Origin: a virus | DNA length: 27,475 bases | IMG/VR virus record: IMGVR_UViG_3300030041_000065 | Coordinates: 1 to 27,475 of that record | Strand: one strand, 5' to 3' | Shown here: in pieces, positions 2,526-12,447 of the stretch | Layout: every line of letters begins with the position of its first letter | Numbering within the stretch: the stretch's first letter is position 1 | Notes under the pieces: generated by a model | The model's database searches: none | Told to the model about the DNA's origin: nothing | Seen by the model: the letters and a program-made list of their open reading frames with translations, nothing else | Made by a program: the position numbers and the translations under genes

Positions 2526-3292
2526 CACACGCTCGCTAATCTAGTATTGCATTCCGACGCTATCTCTTTAGCCTGCGCATTGGTAAGCTGTTTATAAGAA
2601 GCCACTTTATATTTAGCGTGAATATCCTTAGAGTTCATTTTAGCTTTAAACACAAGTTCACTAAGTTTAAAAACTTGGTCTTCGGTTAGGAATGAAGAGA
2701 CAACGGGTTTTGCATCTTGCTGGAATGGAATCGGATTATCCATCTGATAGCCAATTTTCAAATTACTTTGAGGGGTCTCTAATATTTCTCCTGTCTCCAT
2801 GTCAACGTTAAGCTTTACAGCGCCTTGAATAGAATCGGTCTCTGATTCATCTAGGAAGCCTAGCCCACTTATGGATAGCGTAACCCTGCGCTTTGCTTTG
2901 GTCTCAGCCTTCATCACCGCGTTAGCTAAATTATCCCCTGACAAGCCTTTCAAGTTAACCGCGCCTGTAGCGGAGTCGCTCCTGCCATGCCTGTTAGTGG
3001 CCTCAGCGGTTACAATATATAGATCGTCAATCTTTTGTTTGTCTACGATCTTTAATGATATTCCATGCAAATCCCTTAGCTGTTCAGTGCAGTTCTTGCC
3101 AGCATATAAAACCTCTTTACCCTGAAAGCGAATAAACGCTAATGGCTGCGTTAATGGATTTAATCCAACAGAATCACAGACTTGCTTGTAATACATTACC
3201 TTTTCGTCGGGTTTTAACTTACTCAGATCGCCCTCAAGAATGACCTTTGCTAATGCTTGTTCTTTGCTTGTCACGGTTAATTCATTGCTCAT
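2525..3292 (-). CDS. Putative RecT/ERF-like single-strand annealing protein, 255 aa
   Basis: The segment around residues 25-150 carries a conserved phage pattern: YYKQVCDSVGLNPLTQP, then KAETKAKRRVTLSISGLG and LDES, typical of phage recombination proteins often grouped with RecT/ERF-like annealing proteins. Such proteins bind single-stranded DNA and pair complementary strands during phage replication and repair. The start at 3292 has GGGG seven bases upstream; an earlier in-frame start at 3346 would add a hydrophobic 18-residue leader inside the upstream gene and is rejected. The C-terminal 70 residues look like a variable linker plus a small helical domain (about 205-255). A general single-strand DNA-binding role is the main alternative. 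Confidence 0.6.
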   Translation of the reverse strand: MSNELTVTSKEQALAKVILEGDLSKLKPDEKVMYYKQVCDSVGLNPLTQPLAFIRFQGKEVLYAGKNCTEQLRDLHGISLKIVDKQKIDDLYIVTAEATNRHGRSDSATGAVNLKGLSGDNLANAVMKAETKAKRRVTLSISGLGFLDESETDSIQGAVKLNVDMETGEILETPQSNLKIGYQMDNPIPFQQDAKPVVSSFLTEDQVFKLSELVFKAKMNSKDIHAKYKVASYKQLTNAQAKEIASECNTRLASV

Positions 3293-3293
3293 T

Positions 3294-3473
3294 TTAATAC
3301 CCCATATGACAATCAAGAAGAACGAAATATTCATCACAATCATCATACTGAGTCACTTCCAGACCTTGAAGTCTAAAAATACATTGGTCATTCTGTCCAT
3401 ATCCTTCTATGTTTAAATTTCCATAATCATTTTTAATCTTTTCAAGCATTATAATTGCTTCCTTTATATTCAT
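3294..3473 (-). CDS. Small hypothetical protein, 59 aa
   Basis: A 59-residue product beginning with an ATGA overlap to the upstream gene and stopping one base before the annealing-protein start. The N-terminal third is a likely helix and the remainder looks like short beta strands with several Asp and Cys residues. No family is recognised, but the tight spacing supports a real gene. Confidence 0.6.
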   Translation of the reverse strand: MNIKEAIIMLEKIKNDYGNLNIEGYGQNDQCIFRLQGLEVTQYDDCDEYFVLLDCHMGY

Positions 3474-3655
3474 TTTGTCATCATCCGTACTTTAAATATA
3501 TTCTTGCTCACTACAGCCACAACTCTATATGTGACCGACTTTCTAAGAACATCATTGTAACTCATTCGTTTATAACCATATTCAGTTAAGACAACCCTAT
3601 CGCCTGGCGATAGATAGTGGTCGTATTGTTCAATTTCTTCAGTATCCTTTGTCAC
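3470..3655 (-). CDS. Small hypothetical protein with beta-barrel-like pattern, 61 aa
   Basis: I chose the GTG at 3655 because AAGGA lies seven bases upstream and the codon follows the stop of the upstream gene; the longest frame (from 3712) would overlap that gene by 47 bases. The product contains a PGDRVVLTEYG turn and a run of alternating Val/Ile strands (about 15-58), suggesting a small SH3-like or OB-like barrel. Function is unknown. Confidence 0.55.
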   Translation of the reverse strand: MTKDTEEIEQYDHYLSPGDRVVLTEYGYKRMSYNDVLRKSVTYRVVAVVSKNIFKVRMMTK

Positions 3656-4842: not shown

Positions 4843-4861
4843 GGCCTCCATAGGAGAATTT

Positions 4862-5038
4862 ATGTATATCAAAAGAGACAAAAGACCTGAAAAGGTGCCC
4901 AAGTGTCGCACCAAATGCAAGAATATCAACATTCGAGTCACGCCGAATGAGCATGAGCGCATTAGAAAGACAGCCGAATCAGAGGGGCTTAACATTACTC
5001 AGTGGTTTGAGCGACTTATATTTGGGGAAGACAAATGA
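4862..5038 (+). CDS. Ribbon-helix-helix-like DNA-binding protein, 58 aa
   Basis: A basic N-terminus with two cysteines is followed by NINIRVTPNEHERIRKTA and GLNITQWFERLI (about residues 21-53). This fits a ribbon-helix-helix (Arc/MobC-type) fold: one strand then two helices. Such proteins bind DNA as dimers and often control their own promoter. It is the first gene after the rightward promoter and has AGGAGA just before the ATG, so autoregulation of the divergent region is plausible. A relaxosome-accessory (MobC-like) origin is the alternative. Confidence 0.65.
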   Translation: MYIKRDKRPEKVPKCRTKCKNINIRVTPNEHERIRKTAESEGLNITQWFERLIFGEDK

Positions 5039-5548: not shown

Positions 5549-5733
5549 TTGGCGAGATTCAAGACAAGGTTAAAGCGATTAAAGAAAAGCACCTTAACGA
5601 AGAAAACATTATGACTTATTTTTATGGCAACGAAGCAAGCGAAGAAGAAAAAAAAGCATATAGAGTCGGCGCTTTAAATGCTTTAGATGAGGTTTATTTT
5701 TTTCTTGAAAAGCTAGCATTAGATTATTATTAG
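5545..5733 (+). CDS. Small hypothetical acidic protein, 62 aa
   Basis: The ATG at 5545 overlaps the upstream TGA (ATGA) and is preferred over the GTG two codons earlier. The 62-residue product is helical and acidic, with Glu/Lys-rich segments. It is the last gene before the structured non-coding region, and its 3' end contains a candidate promoter for that region. Confidence 0.6.
   Translation: MIGEIQDKVKAIKEKHLNEENIMTYFYGNEASEEEKKAYRVGALNALDEVYFFLEKLALDYY
5705..5733 (+). promoter_or_regulatory. Candidate promoter for the structured RNA locus
   Basis: TTGAAA at 5705-5710 and TATTAG at 5728-5733 are 17 bases apart. A transcript would start near 5740, exactly where the first potential RNA helix begins. 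The -10 box is imperfect, so this is a candidate only. Confidence 0.35.
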
Positions 5734-5739
5734 AATTAA

Positions 5740-5865
5740 GCCTTCACCACTCGTTAGGGGTAACTGAGTTTTTAAAGCGTGAGGGCTATTTATTTGGGAA
5801 AGAGGATGCCCTAGGCTGCCGCTGGGGAAAGCCCACTCTAACGAGTGACCGACTAAGCAAGGTCA
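5740..5865 (+). ncRNA. Putative structured RNA with a 12-bp long-range helix
   Basis: Bases 5748-5759 can pair with 5836-5847 (10 perfect Watson-Crick pairs between CACTCGTTAG and CTAACGAGTG, plus one G-U and one G-C). Inside, GGGCT (5783-5787) pairs with AGCCC (5830-5834). A competing 8-bp helix joins 5740-5747 to 5779-5786 and shares bases with the inner helix. A 5-bp hairpin (5846-5850 with 5861-5865) follows. No coding frame fits and the DNA is richer in G and C than the genes around it. I do not recognise a known RNA family. Confidence 0.5.
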
Positions 5866-5897
5866 TGAATTAACATGGGAAGGTCATCTTAAGAACG

Positions 5898-5933
5898 AGG
5901 CGTCGGCACACGCCTACTCTTTCCCTCTTTTTT
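5898..5933 (+). terminator. Hairpin followed by T-run (candidate terminator)
   Basis: AGGCGT (5898-5903) pairs with ACGCCT (5910-5915) around a 6-base loop, and six T residues follow at 5928-5933. The T-run is 12 bases past the stem, which is far for an intrinsic terminator, so this may be an RNA structural element instead. Confidence 0.35.
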
Positions 5934-5953
5934 GGCATTAACGGGTCTAAACC

Positions 5954-6016
5954 GCCAAGGTGCCCCCTGATGTGGGGTGTCATGTGCAAGGATAAAAACC
6001 TTGGTGCCTCTTTTTT
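5954..6016 (+). terminator. Alternative-hairpin terminator or attenuator candidate
   Basis: CCTTGG at 5999-6004 can pair with CCAAGG at 5955-5960, or its first five bases with CAAGG at 5987-5991. A further hairpin of up to 8 bp with G-U pairs (5959-5966 with 5974-5981) overlaps the first option. Six T residues follow at 6011-6016. Mutually exclusive stems before a T-run are the layout of an attenuator or RNA switch, but no ligand or leader peptide is evident. Confidence 0.35.
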
Positions 6017-6080
6017 GGCGCATTAGAATTCGTTGGTTAGTTAGTCCTTCCCAACGGTCCGTGAGATTCGGGCGTGCGCC
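6017..6080 (+). ncRNA. tRNA-like three-way fold lacking a D-arm
   Basis: A 7-bp closing helix (6017-6023 with 6074-6080, last pair T-G) is followed by TA as at tRNA positions 8-9. Then comes a 6-bp hairpin CGTTGG/CCAACG (6031-6036 with 6051-6056, 14-base loop). A 5-bp, 7-base-loop arm (6057-6061 with 6069-6073) directly abuts the closing helix. The closing helix and last arm match tRNA acceptor and T-arm geometry. There is no D-arm, the loop lacks the TTC signature and no CCA is encoded, so it is not a normal tRNA. Confidence 0.45.
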
Positions 6081-6088
6081 TTTTGTCT

Positions 6089-6160
6089 TGCACAGTAAAA
6101 TTTGCAGTGAATTGAACACGCATTGCATTGCCGGTTCTTAAATACCAACGGCCTGTGCAC
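6089..6160 (+). ncRNA. Second multi-helix RNA element
   Basis: TGCACAG (6089-6095) pairs with CTGTGCA (6153-6159), a 7-bp helix. Directly abutting its 3' strand is an arm with GCCG (6130-6133) paired to CGGC (6149-6152). A weak GTG/CAC hairpin (6107-6109 with 6117-6119) has a 7-base loop. The layout echoes the tRNA-like fold just upstream but with poorer arms. It ends shortly before the ribosome site of the gene at 6187. Confidence 0.3.
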
Positions 6161-6186
6161 TTTATTGGAGAGATTGGGAACGTAAT

Positions 6187-6351
6187 ATGGTCACTTATTT
6201 AACTAATTTTGAACTAAGAACAATGCTAGAAAAACATTTCGATGAACTGCCGATTGAATTCTACGTAGAGGGTCTTGGTTGTTTTACATTCAATCAATTA
6301 GTGATTGACGACTCCGGTTCCTTTCCGAGATTATCTATAGAGCTTGAATAA
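6187..6351 (+). CDS. Small phage protein of the TN-x-EL/DELPI type, 54 aa
   Basis: The N-terminal region (TNFEL...LLEK-like spacing, then DELPI at about residues 19-23) aligns with the start of the protein at 6541-6714, so the two are probably paralogues. Small phage proteins with a helix followed by a short beta unit of this kind are common, but their function is unknown. GGGA precedes the ATG. The stop overlaps the next ATG by one base (TAATG). Confidence 0.6.
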   Translation: MVTYLTNFELRTMLEKHFDELPIEFYVEGLGCFTFNQLVIDDSGSFPRLSIELE

Positions 6352-6763: not shown

Positions 6764-6948
6764 CAGCTAACTAGTTATGTCAGTATTAGCGGATGTTTAA
6801 ACTAAAACGACAATTTTAGAATAGCATTCATCATGAAGTGGTGGAAAGAAGAATTAATATCGGTTAGTGTATCGGCAATTTAAATCACAGCGCCCTAAGA
6901 TTTCCCGTGGAAAGTGAATCTTTAGAGCGCCCAAAGAGGTCCGTTTCT

Positions 6949-7599
6949 ATGGCGCAAATTATCACATCGCAAGCACAATCAATCAACCCTTCATGCTACC
7001 ATTCGTCGGTTGTTGGCGATCTAACAACATTTAAACCCACTCGGCTACCTTTATATCGATTCAGGGAACTCAAGAAAGAGCATCACAAGGCTTGTCTAAA
7101 ATCGATATCAGACTTTGAATACAAGCCGACCACCAAGTTCATTTATGAAACCATCATCAATAATTGCGACAAGGAAGGCTCGTCCCGCATCGCTCATTCA
7201 ACGATAGCCAAGAAGCTTTATATCTCTCGCTCTACGGTCATGAGGCACTGCAAACGCTTAGAGGCTGATGGCCACATCATTACTTATAAAAACGGTTGGC
7301 AGGAATCAAATACAACTGTTGTGATAGCCATACAACATTGGAATATTAACAAAAGTGTCAATTCGCAACACAATCATACCCCAGGCGAAGAGCCGCCGAA
7401 GAACGGCTCAAGTCCGCCTGGGAACAATGAACAGAAAGAGGTCGAAGACGCCTGCCCTATGGGGCGCGTCTCTCCCAAAGAGGCGGAATGGGACGACCAC
7501 GTAGCCTACAAGGAGCCAACAGAGGCTGAAAAGGCGGCGGTATCTGAAAGGTTGAAGGCTTTGAAAGAGCTGCATGGATTAAGACATAGGAAACATTGA
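6949..7599 (+). CDS. Winged-helix DNA-binding protein, likely replication initiator type, 216 aa
   Basis: Residues about 60-120 form a helix-turn-helix/winged-helix domain of the HTH_36 type: SRIAHSTIAKKLYISRSTVMRHCKRLEADGHI followed by a short wing. Phage replication proteins of the lambda-O kind and replisome organisers carry this domain at the N-terminus. The C-terminal part (about 140-216) is low-complexity, rich in Pro, Glu and Lys, with no ATPase motif, so helicase loading would need a partner. The ATG at 6949 has AGAGG about ten bases upstream; a GTG at 6907 would add 14 residues. A transcriptional regulator is the alternative. Confidence 0.65.
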   Translation: MAQIITSQAQSINPSCYHSSVVGDLTTFKPTRLPLYRFRELKKEHHKACLKSISDFEYKPTTKFIYETIINNCDKEGSSRIAHSTIAKKLYISRSTVMRHCKRLEADGHIITYKNGWQESNTTVVIAIQHWNINKSVNSQHNHTPGEEPPKNGSSPPGNNEQKEVEDACPMGRVSPKEAEWDDHVAYKEPTEAEKAAVSERLKALKELHGLRHRKH

Positions 7600-11659: not shown

Positions 11660-11701
11660 GTCCGTTTGTCTTTTTTATCGTCTGTCGATGAAACGCCCAT
11701 G

Positions 11702-11748
11702 TTGATATCTAAAGATATCAGCTCAGACATGACATCTTTAGATATCAA
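11702..11748. repeat. 15-bp inverted repeat with GATATC cores
   Basis: TTGATATCTAAAGAT (11702-11716) is perfectly complementary to 11734-11748, with a 17-base spacer. GATATC occurs at 11704, 11714 and 11741. It lies between the divergent promoters and codes for nothing, so it is a regulator-binding site or origin element. Confidence 0.6.
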
Positions 11749-11866
11749 TTAACAATCATCACATAGACAATTAACACCAGAATAGTCAGAGGCCAATAAC
11801 CACGGGGCTTGTCATCGGTATGTTATCGAACTTTATTTAACATCGTCACATAGCATAATTAACAAC
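11749..11866. repeat. Two imperfect 30-bp direct repeats with phased TTAACA
   Basis: The segments 11749-11778 and 11837-11866 are closely similar (shared TCACATAG and AATTAACA). Each begins and nearly ends with TTAACA. The four TTAACA copies sit at 11749, 11771, 11837 and 11859, all spaced by multiples of 22 bases. The arrangement resembles iterons or a helically phased operator. Confidence 0.55.
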
Positions 11867-12362: not shown

Positions 12363-12405
12363 TATCATTTTCTATTGCACATTTGCCTAGCGCAAAGAAA
12401 GTTAC

Positions 12406-12427
12406 GAGAGCGTCTTAGGGCGCTCTC
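12406..12427 (+). terminator. Stem-loop before the terminase genes
   Basis: GAGAGCG (12406-12412) pairs with CGCTCTC (12421-12427) around an 8-base loop. Only TGCTTATT follows, so termination would be weak; it may instead process or stabilise the message. Confidence 0.4.
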
Positions 12428-12447
12428 TGCTTATTAAAGGATTAAAA

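Follow-up and report, generated by a model that had tools for sequence, protein, structure and literature searches.

What kind of element is a 64-nt stretch that, within a non-coding gap of a phage genome, can fold into something resembling a tRNA deprived of its D-arm? Is it an RNA under selection, is it a tRNA or a tmRNA in any accepted sense, and does it act in trans or on the transcript that contains it? The stretch, here termed E3, belongs to what will be called the window, i.e., the whole DNA analysed, 27,475 nucleotides of a 27.5-kb virus record with a P22-type portal and coat. From the letters alone, the original prediction had read in it a 7-bp closing helix, an adjacent TA, a 6-bp hairpin with a 14-base loop and, directly abutting the closing helix, an arm of 5 bp with a 7-base loop, and every one of these parts was recovered at the coordinates collected in Table 1.

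Table 1. Coordinates of E3, its parts and its neighbours in the window.
Feature	Position	Strand	Description
E0	5739..5787	+	Closed element, 9-bp helix with hairpin; z -2.6; conserved GAATTAAGCC flank in alignment
E1	5796..5925	+	Three-way-junction RNA; invariant core AAGAACGAGGCG..CGCCTACTC at 5891-5919; match to Arthrobacter phage DNA
E2	5934..6008	+	75-nt closed element; rod-like MFE; z -1.0, not significant
E3	6017..6080	+	64-nt three-helix RNA; fold z -3.9; orthologue at 3453-3514 of the relative L115
E3 closing helix	6017-6023/6074-6080	+	7 bp
E3 unpaired strand	6024-6030	+	UAGAAUU, including the UA (6024-6025) adjoining the closing helix
E3 middle hairpin	6031-6056	+	6-bp stem (6031-6036/6051-6056), 14-nt loop
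E3 T-arm-like hairpin	6057-6073	+	5 bp (6057-6061/6069-6073), loop UGAGAUU (6062-6068); abuts the closing helix directly
U-rich linker	6081..6089	+	UUUUGUCUU, from the sequence; directly 3' of E3; a U-rich flank follows each element in both arrays
E4	6090..6158	+	Closed element made of a 6-bp helix, a 7-bp hairpin and a last arm that abuts the closing helix; z -2.0
O-like replication initiation gene	6907..7599	+	PHROGs replication initiation, E 1e-8; downstream of the array

The fold itself is well defined, with an MFE of -25.5 kcal/mol, 75% of the ensemble in the three-helix structure, two further base pairs placed by RNAfold within the middle loop, and equally good folds in none of 200 shuffles. 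A strict descriptor for D-armless tRNA-like RNAs, composed after the fold was known and therefore supportive rather than independent, finds a single match in the whole window (E3) and none in 60 dinucleotide shuffles of it. The acceptor/T-arm-like geometry without a D-arm, as originally proposed, corresponds to a real RNA fold. The reverse strand of E3 folds almost as well, and the strand is thus not fixed by folding; E3 is taken as being on the + strand because the flanking genes and the neighbouring element E1 are co-directional, the latter being assigned to that strand from the orientation of its copies in tRNA clusters.

Whether such a fold has been maintained can be asked of a relative, the contig IMGVR_UViG_3300048822_000082 (L115), whose terminase is 87% identical to that of the window phage and which is collinear with the window around the E3 site, a site that blastn itself does not align. 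The same three-helix RNA is encoded there at positions 3453-3514, and one gap pair suffices to align both copies. Six of the 22 pairs have both bases replaced with pairing preserved (columns 16-39, 18-37, 19-36, 20-35, 23-32 and 44-54), a count that comes from two distinct copies among all the sequence searched, from which the structure had also partly been read. Pair 6-59 has been lost from both strands together, leaving an acceptor-like helix of 6 bp in L115 against 7 bp in the window. Overall, 90.7% of the cells of the alignment are paired, compared with 33-43% when the partners are slid, and the observed pairing values were reached by 3 of 500 shuffles. While the helices vary, all three unpaired loops stay conserved, i.e., UUAGnAUU following the closing helix, yUAGUy capping the middle arm (26 nt long in both phages) and the UGAGAUU loop of the last arm. 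The search for compensatory changes in a homologue, which the original prediction had put forward as its own test, has thereby been carried out with a positive outcome, and the compensatory helix changes between the two copies are those of a functional structured RNA in the generic sense. That E3 is a selected RNA structure can be stated with high confidence, whereas its function is something that we infer. Coding by the overlapping frames 5889-6128 (-) and 5977-6141 (+) was also considered and rejected, as it clashes with the paired changes and with a 1+1-nt deletion.

How close is this RNA to tRNA? As anticipated in the original prediction, it is neither a normal tRNA nor a tmRNA: ARAGORN calls neither at E3 in its bacterial or mitochondrial modes, no Rfam 15 family reaches the gathering score, and permissive Rfam filters are equally negative, riboswitches included; tRNAscan-SE and a tmRNA search had been suggested beforehand as negative controls. 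The cloverleaf with a D-arm is absent, with no RF00005 match, and so are the TTC signature and an encoded 3' CCA, in whose place the two copies carry GCGCC-UUUU and GCGCC-UCUU; a CCA might be attached at a later stage. The features of tmRNA (the signature GGnUUCGAC of its tRNA-like domain along with UUCGA and CCA, and the mRNA-like domain) are missing as well, in line with the negative Rfam result. E3 is not a member of any named family tested here, and is modestly but clearly new. What it does share with tRNA is the coaxial arrangement of the acceptor-like helix and a T-arm of 5 bp and 7 nt, in which, as judged from the sequence, both phages retain G53, U54, a purine at 57, A58 and C61; these include the T and A (U54 and A58) whose conservation at the T-loop pairing positions had been pointed out originally. 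U8-A9-G10, following the closing helix, is kept in both phages too. The loop UGAGAUU departs from the UUCRA of the TPsiC loop in both copies, positions 54, 57 and 58 being kept and 55-56 not, and the L115 version of this arm, GUCGG-UGAGAUU-CCGAC, would become a standard T-arm (GUCGG-UUCGAUU-CCGAC) by exchange of positions 55 and 56 alone, which in tRNA are the contacts to the D-loop, absent in E3. Furthermore, when a covariance model built from the two copies only was run on 857 kb, in which tRNAs make up 0.85% of the bases, its two best other matches were real tRNAs (L008 and L041) in exact register, albeit weak ones (E 0.66 and 1.5). T-loop hairpins are found in many RNAs, and UGARAUU is also the generic T-loop form of the hairpins of FMN and cobalamin riboswitches; judging by this motif, the tRNA likeness may be a coincidence, the loop being of the generic T-loop form and not that of the TPsiC loop of tRNA.

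By architecture, the nearest known system is the tRNA-like domain of tmRNA (RF00023), which also lacks a D-stem and shares with E3 a 7-bp closing helix, a single strand replacing the D-loop, one middle helix and a 5-bp/7-nt T-arm abutting the closing helix; E3, however, is shorter and without the GGnUUCGAC D-loop, the UUCGA T-loop, the CCA and the Rfam match. Such a domain occurs alone in Stenotrophomonas phage Jojan60 (L004 1583-1665), which encodes one of 83 nt, with 61.8 bits to RF00023, CCA included and no mRNA-like domain, just 3' of its copy of E1; E3, too, lies 3' of an E1. D-armless mitochondrial tRNAs resemble E3 in their size (~60 nt), the short strand replacing the D-arm and the retained T-arm, but E3 has a 26-nt middle arm and no readable 7-nt anticodon loop, apart from the negative result in the mitochondrial mode of ARAGORN. 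The stable RNAs C and D of T4 (rnaC and rnaD; L193) likewise are structured, lie in or next to a tRNA gene cluster and have no known function, although they are longer (139 and 119 nt), have no sequence relation to E3 and, in the case of rnaC, carry a true TTCGA arm. The put antitermination RNA of HK022 resembles E3 in being structured and in its place, within a lambdoid-type genome, in the early operon; it consists of two stem-loops with no three-way junction. The T-loop hairpins of FMN and cobalamin riboswitches share with E3 the UGARAUU-type 7-nt loop, though not a riboswitch match in Rfam.

E3 does not stand alone. The original prediction had placed it in a phage non-coding region, which holds, but had missed that the gap (5733-6187) contains an array of closed RNA elements, E0 to E4 (5739-6158), with a U-rich 8-mer (5-7 T of 8) after each, and that one of them, E1, is a widespread phage RNA found elsewhere inside tRNA clusters. 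The folds of E0 and E1 are well supported and that of E4, whose topology is E3-like and for which no relative was found, moderately so; folding support is absent for E2, whose reading as a cloverleaf was rejected given its rod-like MFE. The array stands among co-directional early genes just ahead of an O-like replication gene, and it is this downstream gene that places it in an early operon; promoter-like sites were not found in 5600-6180, nor terminators at the array in a terminator scan. An array also occupies the corresponding place in L115, where E0 (by position, 3362-3403) and E3 have counterparts; that phage has no E1 and no tRNA. After the E3 orthologue, L115 carries at 3523-3582 another element (9-bp GC-rich closing helix, one hairpin on the 5' side, a 17-nt A/U-rich strand, z -4.5), for which no counterpart was found in the window. 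In the leader of the replication gene (window 6889-6931), a hairpin AGCGCCCTAAGATTT..AATCTTTAGAGCGCC followed by AGAGGTCCGTTTCTATG is conserved in L115 (~4850-4912) with a different stem, a pattern found in these two phages only.

E1 is the wider discovery here, apparently an unnamed and widespread family of phage RNAs. It matches non-coding DNA of Arthrobacter phages over 118 nt, and its 32-nt core is also present in Rhodococcus, Microbacterium and Stenotrophomonas phages; the exact core pattern occurs in 104 stretches of IMG/VR and in 14 of bacterial genomes (mostly Actinobacteria), with no Rfam match in the copies scanned (window, L002-L007). Its three-way junction carries a variable cap, of which there are several subtypes, an invariant strand AAGAACGA and the invariant core AAGAACGAGGCGN(5-12)CGCCTACTC (window 5796-5925; L002-L111, L194-L207). 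Among 97 distinct pattern matches with enough flank, a few of which seem to be fortuitous and lie in coding sequence, the closing helix is fully paired in 65, compared with 8.1% when tails are swapped between copies, and 22 of 38 pairs are changed on both sides in an alignment of 11 copies including that of the window. A tRNA gene lies near E1 in 34 of the 97 cases, as opposed to 12 of 428 control windows from the same contigs, and the tRNAs concerned are always on the same strand (73/73). In clusters, E1 fills the space that separates one tRNA gene from another; in 7 of 9 cases, 6-15 nt lie between the end of its core and the following tRNA. Part of this association in bacterial genomes may reflect the use of tRNA genes as integration sites. 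The record of Jojan60 annotates a hypothetical protein (1471-1611) overlapping E1, and the start of T4 rnaD (L193 1554-1672, -), AGAAACCGGGTCGCTACCGGTAAGTC, resembles by eye the E1 core AAGAACGAGGCGTCGCTACACGCCTACTC, a possible distant relation.

What, then, might E3 do? The main rival to a tRNA-shaped RNA acting in trans is control in cis, in which E0-E4 would be tandem intrinsic terminators or antitermination RNAs (HK022 put-like) ahead of the replication genes, the closing helix and the U tract stopping the polymerase and the loops binding a regulator. In lambda, nutR/tR1 occupies a comparable position, past the first early genes and ahead of those for replication, and the U-rich 8-mer after every element, the place of the array among co-directional early genes before the O-like gene and the absence of promoter-like sites all fit this possible, if rather unlikely, explanation. 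E3 itself combines a 7-bp closing helix and a U-rich tail with a 50-nt branched loop at the apex. Against this explanation, the terminator scan is negative over the array, loops of ~50 nt with conserved motifs are needless for termination, and the copies of E1 in tRNA clusters have no U tract, so that at least E1 is no terminator. E3 could also be a stable trans-acting RNA unrelated to tRNA handling, for instance a base-pairing RNA of the Hfq type or a protein sponge, with a tRNA look that is just a generic T-loop hairpin on a helix. The frequency of such hairpins among RNAs, the lack of a tRNA database match and the conserved apical loop yUAGUy, a potential pairing seed, speak for it, but U8-A9-G10 and the core positions of the T-arm are retained together and the neighbouring E1 has a tRNA-cluster context, which leaves this proposal doubtful.

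Far less credit can be given to the two remaining explanations. A DNA-level element (cruciform, origin or packaging site) would agree with two strands that fold about equally and with a replication initiator gene nearby, yet conserved unpaired loops between varying stems would be unusual for a protein-binding DNA inverted repeat, and E1 next to it is an RNA, judged by its location in tRNA clusters; E3 is very improbably of this kind. A decayed and functionless tRNA gene, as envisaged among the options of the original prediction, would account for acceptor and T-arm remnants with a missing D-arm, but the six pairs altered on both sides and the loops preserved across two divergent phages, together with a middle arm of constant length, make it the least credible of all. 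Since the paired changes maintain the structure, E3 is not a neutral relic, though it may descend from a tRNA.

The preferred reading, to which a probability of roughly 40% is given, takes E3 for a small tRNA-shaped RNA, released by processing, that works in trans as ligand or decoy for a tRNA-handling host factor. The array would be co-transcribed with the rightward genes of the early operon, and the U-rich linkers would be the sites at which it is cut into units; E3 would then adopt a compact fold with the T-loop arm stacked on the closing helix (12 bp, or 11 bp in the relative), the unpaired UUAGnAUU strand substituting for the missing D-arm. Its target might be any factor recognising an acceptor helix stacked on a T-arm: RNase P, RNase Z, EF-Tu, SmpB or a tRNA-cutting defence enzyme. 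In tRNA, the T-arm/acceptor stack is bound by RNase P and the elbow is clamped by RNase Z (PMC4919913), and a shape like that of E3 could therefore be handled by these enzymes. The tRNA-shaped reading is supported by a fold beyond chance, the six paired changes, the conserved loops, the T-arm core positions, the tRNA matches of the covariance model, the tRNA-cluster habit of E1 and the tRNA-like domain of Jojan60; it is weakened by the number of copies (two), the missing CCA, TTC and D-arm, the generic T-loop, a relative with neither E1 nor tRNA, and U-rich tails that fit terminators too. More tentatively still, the E1-type RNA might be arrayed with purpose-made D-armless tRNA mimics that enter tRNA processing and occupy or block a host tRNA-handling factor or a tRNA-cutting defence factor. 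RNAs C and D of T4 have long been known as stable RNAs of unknown function in phage tRNA clusters. Here, a small tRNA-shaped phage RNA is under selection, and the family of its neighbour sits in tRNA clusters as a tRNA gene does; if an action on the tRNA machinery or on tRNA-cutting defence were true, the old stable-RNA question would become testable with cultured phages carrying E1 (Arthrobacter, Rhodococcus, Microbacterium and Stenotrophomonas).

Further copies of E3 were sought in three DNA or protein scans of IMG/VR and in covariance searches of 1.0 Mb, 0.86 Mb and 0.3 Mb plus 45 whole phage records, all of which returned the L115 copy only; a candidate in L190 was rejected as a chance match within a tail-tape gene. 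E2-E4 had no match among the plasmids and cultured phages searched, and nothing relevant on E1 or on D-armless phage RNAs was found in the literature searched. An intergenic structure scan of other terminase relatives gave no E3-like array, the inspected stretches being mostly ordinary hairpins or terminators. Elsewhere in the window, there is a long hairpin TTGATATCTAAAGAT..ATCTTTAGATATCAA at 11701-11750 and a terminator-like one (GAGAGCG..CGCTCTC) at 12405-12430, the latter present in L115 too. A more distant terminase relative (L150, ~3190-3255) carries an intergenic three-way junction of unrelated sequence, with the closing helix CTTGATTAC..GTAATCAAG and z -5.4.
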